Shown here piece after piece: positions 6,850-63,032 of a DNA stretch of 64,000 nucleotides. The translations under genes and the position numbers were made by a program. The notes below the pieces were generated by a model that was not told the DNA's origin, did no database searches, and saw nothing but the letters and a program-made list of their open reading frames with translations. The DNA is from Prevotella sp. HUN102. GTDB lineage: Bacteria; Bacteroidota; Bacteroidia; Bacteroidales; Bacteroidaceae. Position 1 is the first letter of the stretch, and every line of letters begins with the position of its first letter. The stretch is taken from the NCBI RefSeq assembly GCF_000688375.1, contig NZ_JIAF01000004.1:372001-436000 (forward strand). The letters are read 5' to 3'.

Positions 6850-6990
6850 TTTGTAAACACCTGAAATTCAATGGTTATGCTTTCCGTTTCCATTCTTGCG
6901 AAGAATGCGTTCCAATCTTCGCAAGAATGGAAAGCAAATGACCGAAGAATGCAGTGCATTCTTCGGTCATTTGCAAAACGTGTATTCAAC
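6850..6990 (-). repeat. intergenic repeat family 1, copy B (inverted orientation)
   Basis: Contains CATTCTTGCGAAGAATG, CAATCTTCGCAAG and the palindrome-like pair ACCGAAGAATGCAG / TGCATTCTTCGGT. The left flank TTTGTAAACACCTGAAATTC matches the reverse complement of the flank of copies A and C, so this copy is inverted. It lies between the convergent kbl and aldolase genes. Confidence 0.65.
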
Positions 6991-15435: not shown

Positions 15436-15569
15436 GTTTTTCAAACGTGCGAAGAATGTATTCCATTCTTCGCACGTTTGCATTGCATTCTTGCGAAGAT
15501 TGCACTGCATTCTTCGCACGTTTGGAATCCAACCTTTTAACCACTGATTTTCAAATAGTTACAAACCAT
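15436..15569 (+). repeat. intergenic repeat family 1, copy C
   Basis: Starts TTTTTCAAACGTGCGAAGAATG, contains CATTCTTCGCACG twice and CATTCTTGCGAAGATTG between, then the flank CCACTGATTTTCAAATAGTT. Matches copy A over about 130 bp in the same orientation. 15570-15743 shows no gene. Confidence 0.75.
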
Positions 15570-36818: not shown

Positions 36819-36972
36819 TTTTTCCGATAAAGAGACTAATAAGATACTTGACCCTTATCCCAAATTCAGATTAAAATGTAAATTTCGTTTACCAAAAATC
36901 GCACTTATTTTTTTCGTAATCCAGCATTTGGAAAGCAACATTCCCAAGATTCAAAGCCTATTTTCCGACCCT

Positions 36973-55983: not shown

Positions 55984-56118
55984 AAACACAGAAAGATGGG
56001 CTCACAATCGCAAAATTGAAGTCTCGCAAATGCTGGATTGAGAAAAAATAATGAGCGTTTTCCGGTAAATGTTTTTTACAGAATGGAAAACTCCCTGACC
56101 GAGTTTGGAATCAGAAAA

Positions 56119-56367
56119 CTATTGCTTGCGTTTCTTGTGTTCGTGGAGATGATAGAACAGCACCACAAGATTGAGCGACAAACCGATGAAAATAATAAAA
56201 TACTGTTCCACGGATAAGGACGAAAACAAGCAAGCCTCGTCGCCATTCGCTGCATTCGCCGGTTGGAAAAAATAAAAGAGTGCTGCCAAAAGCACATCGG
56301 CGACAAGGAGTTTCAGCACACTGCTCCTGCATATTTTCTGAAATATATGGGTTGAGTTCACGATCAA
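56119..56367 (-). CDS. small membrane protein (two helices), hypothetical
   Basis: An 82-residue frame with two hydrophobic helices (LKLLVADVLLAALFYFF and YFIIFIGLSLNLVVLFY) separated by a short Cys-containing loop (PANAANGDEACLF), and a basic tail HEHKKRKQ. Amino-acid composition looks coding. There is no in-frame ATG: the start would be TTG 56367 or GTG 56361, which lowers confidence. No family recognised and no promoter seen. Confidence 0.45.
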   Translation of the reverse strand: MIVNSTHIFQKICRSSVLKLLVADVLLAALFYFFQPANAANGDEACLFSSLSVEQYFIIFIGLSLNLVVLFYHLHEHKKRKQ

Positions 56368-56500
56368 TAAAATTAGGTTATGCGTAATAATTTCTGCATT
56401 TTAATGCAATCGACTACAAAAGTATCATTTTTTATGAGAAACGGCAGCCATAAAGCAATTTATTTTCTGAAATTTTAAGCTATGGAAAGCAATTATTCAG

Positions 56501-56508
56501 TATCTTTG
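56501..56508 (+). promoter_or_regulatory. -7 box of the NimA-like gene
   Basis: TATCTTTG, 78 bases before the ATG at 56586. No clear -33 TTTG. Confidence 0.45.
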
Positions 56509-56585
56509 CCAGTAGGAAACGCGCCTTACCTAATTATAATATAGAGGGAAAGGAGCAACGGACAGAATCAAAAACAGAAAAAAGA

Positions 56586-57083
56586 ATGAGACGAAAAGAC
56601 AGGGAAATAACCGAACTGACGGAACTATTGGACGTTATCAGAACATGCGACGTGTGCAGAATTGCGATGAACGACGAGGATGGTGTGCCTTACATCATTC
56701 CGTTGAACTTCGGTATGACGGAACAGAATGGGAAAATAACCCTGCACTTCCACAGTGCGCTCGAGGGCAAGAAACTCAATCTGATCGCAAAGGATTCGAG
56801 AGTGGCTTTTGAAATGGACACGAAACACGAGCTGGAATACTTTCAGGACAAGGGCTATTGCACCTATGCTTACGAGAGCGTGATGGGCAAAGGCAGAATA
56901 AGAGTCCTGTCGGAGGAAGAGAAATTCGACTCCCTGACGCAACTGATGGACCACTATCATCCGGGAGAGAATGCCTATTTCAACCCTGCCGCAATGGCAA
57001 GAACCTGCGTCTACTGTCTGGAAGTGGATCAGATTACGGGGAAGAGGAAACTTCCACACCACGAAAAGCGTAAGAATAGCTGA
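56586..57083 (+). CDS. pyridoxamine 5'-phosphate oxidase-like (NimA-type) flavoprotein
   Basis: A 165-residue split-barrel flavin-binding protein. MRRKDREITELTELLDVIRTCD is the usual N-terminus of the NimA subgroup, and CRIAMNDEDGVPYIIPLNFG and HFHSALEGKKLNLI shape the FMN pocket. NimA relatives can reduce nitroimidazole drugs to amines, but most chromosomal homologues have not been shown to confer resistance. It precedes pdxS by 300 bases, separated by the pdxS promoter, so the B6 link is only positional. Confidence 0.85.
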   Translation: MRRKDREITELTELLDVIRTCDVCRIAMNDEDGVPYIIPLNFGMTEQNGKITLHFHSALEGKKLNLIAKDSRVAFEMDTKHELEYFQDKGYCTYAYESVMGKGRIRVLSEEEKFDSLTQLMDHYHPGENAYFNPAAMARTCVYCLEVDQITGKRKLPHHEKRKNS

Positions 57084-57183
57084 CAAATGCAGCGAAAAAG
57101 AATCACAGGCGTATGATATTCCCACAGAAAAGCACTTGTAATTATCATTTCGTACACAATTTTTACCCAAACGGGAACAAACG

Positions 57184-57215
57184 CTTGGCAAAAGAACGAA
57201 TTGAATATACCTTTG
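57184..57215 (+). promoter_or_regulatory. pdxS promoter
   Basis: CTTG (57184-57187), 20 bases, TACCTTTG (57208-57215). It predicts a long leader of about 160 bases before ATG 57384, room for regulation. Confidence 0.6.
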
Positions 57216-57383
57216 CTGACACGATTCAGAAATCAGACATTAAAATACAGTTGCTGAGAGATTGGGCAGACCTGTTCAGATAAGTCAATTTCAATAGGTT
57301 TACCAACATAGGACAGGTTGCCGGTCTCTCTCATACTTTCTGATGATGAAAGAATTTTAAATACAATAAATAAATACAACACT

Positions 57384-58259
57384 ATGAAAGAGAACAGAAC
57401 AGAATTGAACAGAAACTTGGCGCAGATGCTCAAGGGTGGCGTGATAATGGACGTAACAACTCCCGAACAGGCTCGCATAGCCGAAGCTGCCGGAGCGTGT
57501 GCAGTAATGGCTTTGGAGCGTATCCCGGCAGACATCCGTGCGGCGGGCGGCGTGTCAAGAATGAGCGACCCGAAGATGATTCGCGGCATTCAGGAAGCTG
57601 TCAGCATTCCTGTTATGGCAAAGGTGCGCATCGGTCATTTCGTAGAGGCACAGCTCCTGCAGGCTATCGAGATTGACTATATCGACGAAAGCGAGGTTCT
57701 CTCTCCTGCCGACGACATCTACCACATTGACAAGAATCAGTTCGACGTGCCTTTCGTATGCGGTGCAAAGGACCTCGGCGAAGCATTGCGCCGTATCGCT
57801 GAAGGTGCAACGATGATTCGTACAAAGGGCGAACCGGGCACAGGCGACATCATTCAGGCTGTCCGCCACATGCGTTTGATTCAGTCAGAGATGCGCCGTC
57901 TCACCTCTCTCGGCGAAGACGAACTCTACGAAGCAGCAAAACAGCTCCGTGCGCCTTACGACCTCGTGAAGTATGTTCACGACAACGGAAAGCTCCCGGT
58001 AGTGAACTTCGCAGCCGGCGGCGTTGCCACACCTGCCGATGCAGCGTTGATGATGCAGCTCGGTGCCGAGGGCGTATTCGTAGGTTCGGGTATCTTCAAG
58101 TCAGGCAACCCTGAAAAGCGTGCCCGTGCCATCGTTCAGGCCGTAACAAACTACAAGGATGCCAAGATGATTGCCGAACTGAGCGAAGACCTCGGCGAAG
58201 CAATGGTGGGCATCAATGAAAGCGAAATCGAAGTGTTGATGGCAGAAAGAGGAAAGTAA
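57384..58259 (+). CDS. pdxS: pyridoxal 5'-phosphate synthase, lyase subunit PdxS
   Basis: A 291-residue TIM barrel that builds PLP from ribose 5-phosphate, glyceraldehyde 3-phosphate and ammonia supplied by PdxT. Signatures: [17 protein letters not shown], the active Lys in [32 protein letters not shown] and [14 protein letters not shown]. The frame opens upstream at 57318, but ATG 57384 gives the normal [16 protein letters not shown] start. Two hairpins, the second a clear terminator, separate it from pdxT. Confidence 0.97.
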
Positions 58260-58271
58260 AGAACAGAGAAA

Positions 58272-58316
58272 GTTGGATTAGGAACGGAGATTTGAAGTCT
58301 CTGTTCGTAATCCAAC
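58272..58316 (+). terminator. long hairpin after pdxS
   Basis: 19-bp arms (GTTGGATTAGGAACGGAGA and its near complement) with one mismatch and one wobble, 7-base loop, 12 bases after the pdxS stop. No T run follows, so it may protect the 3' end instead of terminating. Confidence 0.6.
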
Positions 58317-58372
58317 ATTTCCAATTTCGCATTCCCGGTTCATTTTCTTACATTCAATAGTCATCATCTATG

Positions 58373-58393
58373 GTCGGCAAAGCCGACTTTTTT
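58373..58393 (+). terminator. intrinsic terminator between pdxS and pdxT
   Basis: GTCGGC, loop AAA, GCCGAC, then TTTTTT. Suggests that much pdxS transcription ends before pdxT. Confidence 0.75.
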
Positions 58394-58442
58394 CAACATT
58401 TTTAGTTACTTTTTCAACATTCCTAATTACTAATTCAACATT
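58392..58442 (+). repeat. three direct repeats at 21-bp period before pdxT
   Basis: TTCAACATT occurs at 58392-58400, 58413-58421 and 58434-58442. Between them the spacer TTTAGTTACTTT / CCTAATTACTAA is also similar. The 21-bp step equals two helical turns, the usual spacing of AraC-family half sites, and an AraC-type gene is adjacent. The last copy ends 3 bases before the pdxT ATG. Confidence 0.6.
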
Positions 58443-58445
58443 CAA

Positions 58446-59024
58446 ATGAGAATTGCCATCCTTGCACTCCAAGGTGCTTTTGCCGAGCACGCCAAGATTA
58501 TGCAGAAGCTCGGCGTGGAGACATTCGAGATACGACAGGCAGACGACTGGAAAAAGCCAAAAGATGGACTGATAATTCCGGGTGGCGAAAGTACCGTGAT
58601 GCTGAAACTGCTGCACGAGCTGAATCTCTTCGAGCCTATCCGAAACGACATACTCGCAGGCCTGCCCGTACTCGGTACGTGCGCCGGTCTCATCCTGCTG
58701 TCGAAAGAAGTTACAGATGCCAAGAGTGAATACAAAAGACTGGCTGCAATGGATATCCATTCACGCAGAAATGCCTACGGCAGACAGCTCGGAAGTTTCT
58801 TCACGATGGGCAGTATGAAAGGCATCGACCATCCCGTTCCAATGACATTCATCCGTGCTCCCTACATAGAAAGCGTGGGCGAAGGCGTGGAAATACTGGC
58901 AGAGGTGGACGGAAAGATTGTCGCCGCACGGCAGAACAATATGATTGTTACCGCATTCCATCCCGAATTGAACGACGATACGGCCATCCACGAACTGCTC
59001 CTTTCACAGGGAAAGAACACATAA
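58446..59024 (+). CDS. pdxT: pyridoxal 5'-phosphate synthase, glutaminase subunit PdxT
   Basis: A 192-residue class I glutamine amidotransferase that supplies ammonia to PdxS. It shows IPGGEST (residues 39-45), the nucleophile Cys in LGTCAGLILL (about 79) and the His-Glu pair in AFHPEL near residue 175. It lies 186 bases after pdxS with a terminator between, and 20 bases from the end of the convergent kinase-AraC fusion gene. Confidence 0.95.
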   Translation: MRIAILALQGAFAEHAKIMQKLGVETFEIRQADDWKKPKDGLIIPGGESTVMLKLLHELNLFEPIRNDILAGLPVLGTCAGLILLSKEVTDAKSEYKRLAAMDIHSRRNAYGRQLGSFFTMGSMKGIDHPVPMTFIRAPYIESVGEGVEILAEVDGKIVAARQNNMIVTAFHPELNDDTAIHELLLSQGKNT

Positions 59025-59044
59025 CTGGCAATTTCGCCACAAAC

Positions 59045-60229
59045 TTATCCCTCCAAGCCCTCCTCGTTCGGGGAGGAATTGGAGCCGGGTTGCTGCCGAT
59101 ACTTTGTAGGCGCGCATCCCTTCATCTTCTTGAAAAACTTATTGAACTGCACCTGTGAGGTGAATCCAAACTCAAAGGCAATGGTTTGGATATTCTTGTT
59201 TGAACCCATAAGATGTATTTCAACCTCCTTTATAATGTAATCGTCGATGAGCTGCTTCGGTGTACGGCCGGCAACACGCCGTGTAACCTGCGCCAGATAG
59301 CGGGGAGTAACGTTCAGCCGGTCGGCATAGAAGCCCACTTCGCCCGTAGACCGATGATGTGCGGCAATCTCGTCCATCAGAGAATTGTAGAGTTCCAACA
59401 TACGTGGGGAAATCGTTTGCTGGGCAATGCTGCTGCTGTGGTCGAGCAGTTGTCCTCCCGTTCCAAGTTCGGAATCGACCGAACGGAGTATCAGTTGCGA
59501 CATATATTCCTGTGCCCGCTCGATGGATGTCGGAATATCATTGCCCATACACAGGAAAACAGCCAGTGCCGAAGTGAAGGCACCACCGGCACCGTGCGTG
59601 ATTCTGTCCACAAAACCCGGTCTGACATAGAAACGGGCTGCTGAAATATCAGCCGCAACGAGCACATCCGTCAGTGCTTCCGTCGTAATGGCTCCCCCTT
59701 GCAGCATCACGCTTGCACATCCCCAAGCCAACAGTTCGCGCGCCATTTCCTCCAAACCGTCGTTCGTCTTCACGGATTTTCCGTTCAGGATATACGAAGC
59801 ACTGTCCTGTTTGATGGTAACGAGCGAGCACAGGGGGAAAAGATTGCGCACCATAGCCTCAACAACGTCTTTCGGCATCAGCATTCTGCCGCGGCTGCTG
59901 ATGACAACGGCATCGAGAACGACGAACCTCGGCGTGTATTCGCGCAGAATCTGCTCTACGACAGCCACCTGTTCCACCGTCCGGAGCATACCTATTTTCA
60001 CGGCATCGGGGCGCAAGTCGTCCATCACGGAGCGCACCTGCACCTCCAGAATCGTGGCGGGAATGTCGTACAGATGCTGAATCCCCTCCGTGTCCTGCGC
60101 CGTTACGGCCGTAATCGCCGTGGCAACATACGCTCCCAAGGCCGTAACGGTCTTTATATCTGCCTGAATGCCCGATCCTCCGGTGCTGTCAGAACCCGTA
60201 ATCGTGAGTATGGTAACTTTCTTCTTCAT
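59045..60229 (-). CDS. degenerate HMP/pyridoxal kinase domain fused to an AraC DNA-binding domain
   Basis: A 394-residue fusion. Residues 1-265 match ThiD/PdxK kinases (ITGSDSTGGSGIQADIKT at 10-27, VKIGML at 77-82). Two catalytic sites are lost: the TPNxxEA block is TIKQDSA (138-144) and the anion-hole Cys/Asp of THGTGC is Gly216 (THGAGG, 211-216). Residues about 285-385 are an AraC-type double helix-turn-helix (IQTIAFEFGFTSQVQFNKFFKKMKGCAPTKYRQ region). It most likely binds a pyrimidine or B6 vitamer and regulates transcription, not phosphorylates. Convergent with pdxT. The ATG at 60229 matches kinase starts; the frame opens at 60244. A bifunctional active enzyme is the alternative. Confidence 0.85.
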   Translation of the reverse strand: MKKKVTILTITGSDSTGGSGIQADIKTVTALGAYVATAITAVTAQDTEGIQHLYDIPATILEVQVRSVMDDLRPDAVKIGMLRTVEQVAVVEQILREYTPRFVVLDAVVISSRGRMLMPKDVVEAMVRNLFPLCSLVTIKQDSASYILNGKSVKTNDGLEEMARELLAWGCASVMLQGGAITTEALTDVLVAADISAARFYVRPGFVDRITHGAGGAFTSALAVFLCMGNDIPTSIERAQEYMSQLILRSVDSELGTGGQLLDHSSSIAQQTISPRMLELYNSLMDEIAAHHRSTGEVGFYADRLNVTPRYLAQVTRRVAGRTPKQLIDDYIIKEVEIHLMGSNKNIQTIAFEFGFTSQVQFNKFFKKMKGCAPTKYRQQPGSNSSPNEEGLEG

Positions 60230-60389
60230 AGCTTCGTACCACAAAAATAACCATTCTTTTCGTATCAGACAAGCATTTCCACCACATTTTGCCGTTTCCC
60301 CCTCTCACCGCTCCGTATCAGACAACGCATTTCACGCACTATCGATTCAGCAGAGAAGCATCAGCGTTTTCAAACATCCAAACACACGA

Positions 60390-60515
60390 TTTTCAATTCT
60401 CCGAAGAATGGCGTGCAATCTTCGCACGTTTGCCTTGCATTCTTCGCTAAAATGGATTGCAATCTTCGCAAGATTGGAAACCAAGTTTTTATCTATTGAT
60501 TATCAAGCACTTAAG
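60390..60515 (+). repeat. intergenic repeat family 1, copy G
   Basis: Words CCGAAGAATGG, CAATCTTCGCACG, CATTCTTCGC and CAATCTTCGCAAG, then the flank TTTTTATCTATTGATTATC, which resembles the flank of copies A and C, same orientation. The remainder of the 60230-60785 gap is AT-rich without a gene. Confidence 0.7.
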
Positions 60516-60738
60516 AAATGCAAAGCAAGCAACAGACAGGATGGCATTGAATTGCTGTCGGATAAGATATTCAATGGATAAACGAAGTGCAGGAATATGA
60601 AGAACTCGAGAGAGACATTCATTGATGCAGAAGATAAAAACGTGTAAAACAAAAAGCAATCAGCTACACAAATATACATATTTCGCTCATTTTCAAGCAT
60701 TTTAACAAAAGAAGTAAACAGATAGAAGTATTTTTCAC

Positions 60739-60746
60739 TATCTTTG
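60739..60746 (+). promoter_or_regulatory. -7 box of the alpha-amylase gene
   Basis: TATCTTTG, 40 bases before the ATG at 60786. No clear -33 box. Confidence 0.45.
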
Positions 60747-60785
60747 TTCACTTTTTATCACAATTCAAATAATTAAAAATTTTAA

Positions 60786-63032
60786 ATGAAACGACTTTCA
60801 ACCTTTTTCTTTGGGCTTATTGTGCCCTTAATGATGCTTGCCCAAGGGTGGCCAAGCAATTACGGAGGCGTTATGCTTCAAGGTTTTTACTGGGACTCGC
60901 ACGCCGATTCCAAATGGACTGTACTTGAAAGCCAAGCCGACGAACTTTCAAAGTTTTTCGACATCATCTGGGTTCCATTCTCAGGAAACTGTCAGAACGA
61001 CAAGAGTATGGGATACAATCCTGTATGGTGGTTTGACAATACGAGTGGTTTCGGCAACGAAGCCGAACTGCGCTCGATGATTCAGGCCTACAAGAAGCGC
61101 GGAACTGCCATAATGGAGGATGTCGTGCTCAACCATAAGGGTGGTGTTAAAGACTGGTGCGACTTCGCTACCGAGCATTGGAACGGCAACGAAATTTCTT
61201 GGACGCTTGCCGATATTTGTGCAAACGACGACGGTGGCGACACTCGCAATCACGACTTTCTTGTCAGCGGCGCAAATGATGAGGGCGATGACTTCAAAGG
61301 TCTTCGCGACCTCGACCATACAAGTGCCAATGTGCAGAAGAACATAAAGCTCTATCTCGACTATCTGCTCAACGACCTCGGATACGGCGGCTTCCGCTAT
61401 GATATGGTAAAGGGCTATGCAGCCTATTATGTAGGAATGTACAATGCTTCTGCGAAGCCTAAGTTCTCGGTAGGCGAGTATTGGGATGGCAATGCAGATG
61501 CTGTTAAAGGATGGATTACGAGAACAAGTGGTGCACCAAATTCTAACGGAGCAATACAGTCTGCCGCATTCGATTTCCCATTGAAGGACATCATCAACAG
61601 TCATTTCAATAATAATAACTTTACGGGCTTCTACGATAAAGGACTTGCCGGAAGAGAAGATATCAACCGATACAGCGTAACCTTCGTAGACAATCACGAT
61701 ACATACAGAGACGACAACAGGCTTAAAAACAACGTTTTGGCGGCAAACGCCTTTATTTTGGCTCTGCCCGGCACTCCCTGTATCTTCCTTCCTCACTGGC
61801 AGGCACACAAGGAAGAACTGAAAAAGATGATTATGGCACGCAAGGCTGCCGGAATTACCAACCAAAGTAAAGTGTATGACGAGCAGAAAGGCAACGGAAG
61901 CATCATTACCACGCAGGGATTAACAGGCAGCATCAAGATGATTGCAGGCTATGTAACAGATGCAGATCTCACAGGCTACACGCTTATTTCAACAGGCACA
62001 ACTGAAAATCCGAACTACGCTTTCTACCTTAGCAACAATATTGTACCAGTCTACAATACGCTGATGGCTACTCAAGTGAACATTGCCGACGGTGCTTCGG
62101 AAGAAAAACTGCTCACCTACGACGCAAACGAACACACCGTTTACTTTGCGAACAATCAGAAATGGCCTGAAGTCTATGCGTGGGCGTGGGACGGCAACAA
62201 CGAATCTCCCAATTATACTGGCGGCCATTGGCCCGGAACGAAGTGTACCAAGACGGATATGAAGACCAAGGAAGGCTACGAAATCTGGAAATGGACTTAT
62301 ACGGACACTATGAGCGACAATTCAAAAATTTTGTTCAACATAGGAAATGACCAGACTAAGACAAGCGATCAGGACTTTATCAACGGTGGATACTACAACG
62401 CCGGAGGCTTGACAGCAGAGGAAACTACGGCTATCAATTCGCTCATCGACCGCAATTTCACAGCCGGACAGCGCAGCACTATCTGCCTGCCGTTCAACCT
62501 TTCTGCCGAAGAACTCAAGACACTCAACGGAAAGGTGTATGAACTGGAGAGCGAGAACAGCGGCGTGCTCCGCTTCCGTGAGGTGGATGTACTGGAAGCA
62601 TACAAGCCTTACATCTTCGTAGCCAATGCAACAGGCAAGAGTATGCAGCCATTGAAGAACAAGGAATGGCTGAAGGGCAATCCCATTACCGTAACGAAAG
62701 GCAATTTCTCGTTCAAGGGTACAATGGAGAAGATATCAGTGCGCCCCATCGCCTCGACAAACTATTTTGCCTACAATGCCGCTGACGGAAAATTCGTGAA
62801 GGCCGGCAAGGAATACGGCATCAGCGTGAAGCCTACCGTCTGCTATTTCTACAGCAATTCGGATGCACACGCAAAGCAGATGGTGCTCGAAGACAAGGTA
62901 AGCAACGCCATCGCAACCATAGAAGTGGAAACAACGGGCGACAATGCAACCTACAACATTGCCGGACAAAGAGTAGACGCGAACTACAAGGGCATCGTTA
63001 TCCGTAATGGCAAAAAGTTTGTGAACAGATAA
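60786..63032 (+). CDS. secreted alpha-amylase (GH13)
   Basis: A 748-residue exported starch-degrading enzyme. Signal peptide 1-19 (LIVPLMMLAQ), catalytic barrel about 25-345 with the nucleophile Asp206 (GGFRYDMVKGY), acid/base Glu231 (SVGEYWD) and Asp305 (TFVDNHDT). A starch-binding-like module follows (about 450-530: VYFANNQKWPEVYAWAWDG), then a beta-sandwich and a C-terminal sorting-like segment (ATYNIAGQRVDANYKG, IVIRNGKKFV) that resembles type IX-secreted or surface-attached proteins. Not part of a visible sus cluster. It has its own promoter; a 63-codon gene follows. Confidence 0.9.
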   Translation: MKRLSTFFFGLIVPLMMLAQGWPSNYGGVMLQGFYWDSHADSKWTVLESQADELSKFFDIIWVPFSGNCQNDKSMGYNPVWWFDNTSGFGNEAELRSMIQAYKKRGTAIMEDVVLNHKGGVKDWCDFATEHWNGNEISWTLADICANDDGGDTRNHDFLVSGANDEGDDFKGLRDLDHTSANVQKNIKLYLDYLLNDLGYGGFRYDMVKGYAAYYVGMYNASAKPKFSVGEYWDGNADAVKGWITRTSGAPNSNGAIQSAAFDFPLKDIINSHFNNNNFTGFYDKGLAGREDINRYSVTFVDNHDTYRDDNRLKNNVLAANAFILALPGTPCIFLPHWQAHKEELKKMIMARKAAGITNQSKVYDEQKGNGSIITTQGLTGSIKMIAGYVTDADLTGYTLISTGTTENPNYAFYLSNNIVPVYNTLMATQVNIADGASEEKLLTYDANEHTVYFANNQKWPEVYAWAWDGNNESPNYTGGHWPGTKCTKTDMKTKEGYEIWKWTYTDTMSDNSKILFNIGNDQTKTSDQDFINGGYYNAGGLTAEETTAINSLIDRNFTAGQRSTICLPFNLSAEELKTLNGKVYELESENSGVLRFREVDVLEAYKPYIFVANATGKSMQPLKNKEWLKGNPITVTKGNFSFKGTMEKISVRPIASTNYFAYNAADGKFVKAGKEYGISVKPTVCYFYSNSDAHAKQMVLEDKVSNAIATIEVETTGDNATYNIAGQRVDANYKGIVIRNGKKFVNR

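Follow-up and report, generated by a model that had tools for sequence, protein, structure and literature searches.

The 64-kb window analysed here (by which we mean the whole stretch of DNA, at its full length) codes for a ThiD-type vitamin kinase domain fused to an AraC-type DNA-binding domain, in a gene that adjoins pdxS and pdxT. We propose that its product probably activates pdxST as a one-component regulator and that its pseudokinase domain would sense a B6 vitamer, most plausibly PLP. Comparative sequence evidence gives good support to control of pdxST by the fusion protein, and a role as a pdxST switch is very probable because the fusion travels with the B6 synthesis genes in more than 100 related genomes. 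We infer, on top of this, that the protein binds DNA, that it activates rather than represses, which ligand it holds and in which direction that ligand acts. The features involved are as follows.

59045..60229, minus strand: ThiD pseudokinase-AraC fusion gene, 394 aa, with its ATG at 60229
59471..60229, minus strand: ThiD-type sensor domain, aa 1-253, with a predicted fold that resembles ThiD/PdxK structures
59090..59329, minus strand: AraC-type helix-turn-helix domain, aa 301-380 (Pfam match)
59798..59818, minus strand: TIKQDSA, aa 138-144, where ThiD has TPNxxEA (alignment with ThiD)
59582..59584, minus strand: Gly216, at the position of the catalytic Cys (alignment; Cys in 51/51 ThiDs)
60095..60097, minus strand: Gln45, a vitamer-side residue, retained in 135/141 fused proteins
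57384..58259, plus strand: pdxS, PLP synthase lyase subunit (NF003215, 509 bits)
58446..59024, plus strand: pdxT, PLP synthase glutaminase subunit (TIGR03800, 223 bits)
57142..57179, plus strand: predicted operator upstream of pdxS, two boxes with a 21-bp period (38-nt matrix, score 16.4)
57185..57188, plus strand: TTGG, a possible -33 element proposed from the sequence
57208..57216, plus strand: -7 element TACCTTTGC, 28 nt after the operator

The first-pass annotation had described a degenerate kinase domain joined to a complete AraC helix-turn-helix, and the Pfam scan bears this out. Phos_pyr_kin (PF08543) covers aa 14-253 (E 8.9e-59, model positions 1-238 of 246), so the ThiD homology spans the whole kinase domain, and HTH_18 (PF12833) covers aa 301-380 over its complete model (1-80 of 80, E 2.9e-20), giving the protein the complete AraC-type helix-turn-helix of the AraC/XylS family. 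The NCBI equivalog cutoff for HMP-P kinase (TIGR00097) is narrowly missed (200.4 versus 204.95 bits), and Pfam and NCBIfam scans found neither the GntR domain nor the aminotransferase fold of MocR/PdxR proteins. TIKQDSA at aa 138-144 and Gly216 are both located where that annotation had placed them. The window protein, a long form as defined below, retains the whole fold in a confident structure model, and its nearest structural folds are ThiD enzymes.

Starting from 17 fused proteins, the window's included, found among the best 30 loci of 60 relatives, we enlarged the set by scanning named genome contigs together with 299 genus and 295 order genomes and fetching the flanks. At least 141 distinct fused proteins, again with that of the window, were gathered and aligned with 51 plain ThiDs, one of them from the window's own genome; L303, with an unrecognised start motif, and L287 (G181), whose match carries one TAG, were retained in the counts. 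The catalytic Cys of THGTGC is present in all 51 plain ThiDs and in 0/141 fused proteins, which have Asn (97), Gly (32), Ser (11) or Ala (1) at that position. The family divides into 39 long and 102 short forms. Among the long forms, the TPN Asn, found in 51/51 ThiDs, is retained in 0/39 (Lys in 25, Arg in 13, Pro in one), and the KGG Lys, invariant in the ThiDs, is replaced by Arg (22), Gln (11) or His (6), while the short forms have lost much of the segment aa 141-208, most of the ATP-binding segment. With the Cys, the TPN Asn and the KGG Lys gone, the kinase domain of the fusion is very probably no longer able to phosphorylate. The vitamer side is retained: G12, D14, G20, D24, G80, H212 and G213 are found in 141/141 fused proteins, Q22 and K78 in 140 and Q45 in 135, and the GSD..GG.G.QAD loop is largely retained. 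We take Gln45 to be the counterpart of Gln44 of Salmonella ThiD, a vitamer-side residue, and judging by this residue the fusion has kept a pocket of the HMP-kinase type, which by itself does not point to B6. A short-form model was also confident (pLDDT 91.6, pTM 0.74), with ThiD structures as its best structural matches.

In a quick-method tree built from 92 of the 141 proteins (fused ORFs of <285 aa and those at least 80% alike were omitted), the fused proteins all group together, apart from ThiD (SH-aLRT 100), and the distribution of long and short forms requires two changes. Purifying selection acts on the sensor domain, with a dN/dS of 0.048 between G017 and G107 of the window's clade, all other clade pairs being saturated or almost so at synonymous sites. 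This value and the universal loss of the Cys show that the changes are not due to chance. Two simpler explanations of the gene were rejected: a decaying relic, by the dN/dS value and the intact frames, and a mis-annotated ordinary ThiD, by the loss of the catalytic Cys in every fused protein and by a separate ThiD elsewhere in the genome. That ThiD (C4:357180-357926, 300 bits) is accompanied in the genome by a pyridoxamine kinase, so the fusion would not be needed as an enzyme.

As the earlier annotation had noted, pdxS and pdxT adjoin the fusion gene, which in the window is convergent with pdxT; the commonest layout elsewhere is fusion-pdxS-pdxT on one strand. That annotation had also asked whether the fusion always neighbours pdxST, and the answer is usually. 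Across loci chosen by similarity to the fusion rather than by pdxS, except for 31 chosen mostly at pdxS, 113/141 have pdxS on the fusion's own strand and no more than 500 bp downstream of it, and another 13 have it within 3.5 kb, either 0.5 to 3.5 kb downstream (6) or close by in another orientation (7, the window included). The remaining 15 show no pdxS in the fetched flanks, although in four of these the locus ends early. After redundancy was removed, pdxS was the conserved partner in 74/92 fusion neighbourhoods, and no thiamine gene was recognised by eye, from the first 60 residues, among the eight other clusters found in at least five of the 92. One of these clusters (L189:3622-4095, 12/92 neighbourhoods) is a small protein that by eye resembles a tRNA-synthetase editing domain.

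Several of the unlinked fusions have features of their own. Four of them (L283, L045, L047 and L048) form a short-form subclade with no pdxS within the fetched flanks, that of L047 ending just downstream, and genome G053 has one fusion of this subclade plus a long form beside pdxS. Two unlinked fusions have directly upstream a gene that by eye resembles a FucP-type permease (L215:5545-6912, L223:5524-6891), a candidate B6 transporter, and at L223 a PdxY-like kinase, also recognised by eye, lies nearby. In the window, a pyridoxamine-phosphate-oxidase-like flavoprotein (PF12900, 56586-57083) immediately precedes pdxS and falls far under the nitroimidazole-resistance cutoffs (55.5 versus 270 bits).

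The association extends to whole genomes. The family helix-turn-helix (E up to 1.6e-38, the next match being at 3.1e-36) occurs in 124 and pdxS in 131 of the 299 genus genomes: 123 have both, one has the fusion alone, eight have pdxS alone and 167 have neither (Fisher p 4.8e-73, uncorrected for shared ancestry). The next-best AraC matches under the cut (L332-L335) have the helix-turn-helix without the kinase domain, and we therefore consider them ordinary AraC proteins. In the order sample, pdxS exceeds the cutoff in 13/295 genomes, and all six fused genomes found, the window's own included, are among these; in a phylum sample of 296 genomes the family helix-turn-helix (E up to 1e-34) was found only in the window's own genome. 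A search of the rest of the eight pdxS-only genus genomes turned up no full-length fusion; in one of them (G124, L305:5941-6451) an 83-aa helix-turn-helix frame adjoins a partial pdxS frame of 125 aa, and in another (G291) pdxS sits at a contig edge. As to a MocR that might stand in next to pdxS in the absence of the fusion, none was recognised by eye in the first 55 residues of each ORF at 13 loci. The sole genus genome with a fusion and no pdxS match is G236, whose fusion (L336) is split across two frames at a contig end, either by decay or by assembly error. Genome G027, also without a pdxS match, has a 153-aa frame similar to the N-terminal kinase half (L307:5987-6445), possibly a relic of co-loss.

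An unsupervised motif search of the 250 bp upstream of 72 operons (those of the 92 loci in which pdxS follows on the fusion's strand and 120 bp or more of upstream sequence is present; the clade of the window lay outside this training set) gave a putative operator, TTgTacAAAntGaaGTTTTcTTTGTCAAAAnggGAACa, of two boxes in a 21-bp direct repeat, with an occupancy of 0.83 in the 72 upstreams. When the set was split randomly into halves ten times, 292 of the 360 upstreams held out exceeded the 99th percentile of scores from 450 control stretches, in a test that leaks slightly, as the training sites were placed using the all-data matrix. A site of at least 15 bits occurs in 57/72 upstreams. In 54 of these 57 it is followed, at a distance of precisely 27 or 28 nt, by a -7-like element, T[AT]nn[TA]TTG, against 127/12256 control positions; seven of the 57 have the strict form TAnnTTTG at that phase. 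A wider search rescued six of the 15 siteless operons, all six with the phased -7 element, one site being at -508 (L185) and five, scoring 17 to 37 bits, between the fusion and pdxS (L050, L055, L214, L236 and L273). The predicted operator therefore belongs with the pdxS promoter, whether or not the fusion gene intervenes. Even after the wider search, nine of the 72 operons lack a site of 15 bits or more. In the second long clade, seven operons (L033, L193, L204, L209, L214, L221 and L222) have no convincing upstream operator, even when a clade-specific motif was sought, the L214 site between fusion and pdxS scoring 17.2.

In the window, the operator upstream of pdxS is the top position of the matrix in all 64 kb on both strands, the runner-up scoring 13.8 at 36868. 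Three clade mates (G017, G107 and G186) have the operator at equal position and spacing with low scores (6.6, 10.1 and 7.6). Their pdxS genes are among 11 that are unlinked to the fusion of their own genome, three of which reach 15 (G066, 29.1; G140, 23.2; G301, 24.4); the others are G299, which is cut by a contig end and also scores below 15, and the pdxS of G148, G167, G084 and G295 (0.3, -3.6, -7.8 and -0.6). A second clade has a variant motif, CGGAACAATGTTTTTCC...GGAAC, clearest at the unlinked pdxS of G148, G167 and G084 and weaker in G295. The four fusion genes outside operons that were scored have no operator in front of them (-5.5 to -16.0), and six pdxS genes from genomes without the fusion had best scores of -14.4, -14.5, -3.0, -4.8, -9.1 and 6.1.

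The first-pass annotation had proposed control of PLP synthesis or salvage. Adjacency, co-occurrence and the conserved operator strongly favour synthesis; for salvage, no operator was found in the 3.5 kb surrounding the pyridoxamine kinase (best score 2.2). A further regulon member could not be established with a profile of 85 positions (R1) built from 48 operators: its best matches in 15 genomes (E 2.3e-8 to 9.9e-19) are, judged by their positions, at fusion-pdxST loci, several of them training loci; many low-complexity matches come after these, and the background reaches 1.4e-8 in a genome with neither gene (G015). The pdxS site of the window is not among the R1 matches with E up to 10. No PdxJ was found in the window's genome, nor any GntR protein of MocR size (the only GntR match is a 125-aa frame), and 56000-61000 has no Rfam match to a known regulatory RNA at the gathering threshold.

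The second-best operator score in the window lies at 36868-36905, and R1 lists 36871-36917 as well. The window also has a dispersed, near-palindromic repeat, GCGAAGAWTGCA...TGCATTCT, with 17 matches on both strands versus 0.25 expected, grouped in small clusters at intervals of 44 or 22 bp; one of the clusters listed here is upstream of the fusion gene.

2426-2494, 6898-6966, 15449-15517 and 60405-60469: dispersed repeat clusters

In the mechanism that we propose, the AraC domain would bind the tandem repeat that adjoins the pdxST promoter on its upstream side, and the ligand-free protein would occupy both boxes and recruit RNA polymerase. With B6 in good supply, the pocket would be filled by a vitamer, probably PLP, and activation would end. 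Where the operator precedes the fusion gene there would be autoregulation as well, which would not apply to the clade of the window. In AraC-family practice a promoter-hugging site at a fixed distance is typically that of an activator, and the constant distance between operator and promoter thus suggests activation here. Since PLP is the product of the pathway, the simplest logic is that the empty pocket activates and the PLP-filled pocket releases; PdxR lets go when PLP fills its pocket.

Because the pocket is of the ThiD type, with Gln45 and most of the substrate loop kept and with ThiD enzymes as the closest folds, the protein could regulate pdxST and yet sense the thiamine pyrimidine HMP or HMP-P, and in this way tie B6 synthesis to the supply of B1. 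We think this unlikely, as the conserved partner is pdxS, with no thiamine gene recognised by eye among the eight other clusters, and ThiD-type proteins act on B6 vitamers too, as documented in PMC7093009 and as the available part of the title of structure 4ywr, which names a pyridoxal complex of a ThiD-type protein, indicates. It is equally improbable that the domain has no small-molecule ligand at all and serves as a dimerisation scaffold, control depending on the amount of the protein or on its contacts with PdxS or PdxT. The short forms have shed large parts of the fold with the gene retained, as a scaffold would allow, but the near-invariance of the vitamer-side residues, seven of them without exception, goes beyond what a scaffold needs.

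Enzyme and regulator are combined in one protein in BirA and NadR, and the long forms, that of the window included, keep the whole fold. A bifunctional protein that still slowly phosphorylates a vitamer is nevertheless very hard to credit, given that the catalytic and ATP-motif Cys, Asn and Lys are gone in 39/39 long forms, that the short forms lack most of the ATP segment, and that the genome has its separate ThiD and pyridoxamine kinase. Sensing of a B6 vitamer by a pseudokinase that activates pdxST is the reading we prefer.

Each part of this arrangement has known relatives. MocR-type PdxR, as portrayed in PMC5320631, is a one-component pdxST regulator with an enzyme-fold PLP sensor and specific operators, as we propose for the fusion, and the fusion family has the same conserved pdxST linkage and shared operator; PdxR combines an aminotransferase fold with a GntR head, whereas the fusion combines a ThiD/ribokinase fold with an AraC domain. 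ThiD itself (TIGR00097) has a homologous domain, with the fold and the vitamer-side residues in common, from which the fusion differs by the loss of the catalytic Cys and the ATP motifs, its sub-equivalog score and the attached helix-turn-helix. The ThiD-fold pyridoxal kinases of Bacillus subtilis and Staphylococcus aureus share the fold and, by the titles of structures 2i5b and 4c5j-n, accept B6 vitamers, but unlike the fusion are active kinases. Archaeal regulators of thiamine (a relative of thiamine phosphate synthase) and riboflavin (bifunctional) are, by the titles of papers on them, also vitamin enzyme domains that control their own pathway. Their enzyme folds and DNA-binding domains are unrelated to those of the fusion, and the vitamins are others. 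With the AraC/XylS family the fusion shares the complete HTH_18; members of that family bind direct-repeat operators near -35, and the putative operator described here, also a direct repeat, adjoins the promoter. To our knowledge, its sensor domain is not among the usual AraC types. A full-text search of the open-licence literature found no description of a ThiD-AraC fusion or of pdxST regulation in this lineage, and the word AraC is absent from the main texts of three papers on B6 or micronutrients (PMC9997740, PMC5320631 and PMC6593275). The use of an enzyme fold as sensor of its own pathway is known, and what seems new is the ThiD-AraC pair of folds and its link to pdxST as target.

Taken further, and here we see the balance as even, the fused proteins may be a new family of PLP-sensing transcription factors, known only from Bacteroidales, that arose from an eroding vitamin kinase. 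The catalytic residues would have been lost first and the ATP lobe afterwards, so that what remains is a pocket for the phosphorylated vitamer itself, and the family would do the job of MocR-type PdxR by an independent origin. More than 100 genes with a kinase-family match are hereby flagged as very probably no longer coding for enzymes, and the predicted operator and promoter could be used for a vitamin B6 biosensor in Bacteroidales. The family forms a graded natural series, from a full kinase fold to a half-deleted one, and the path from enzyme to sensor can therefore be tested step by step.
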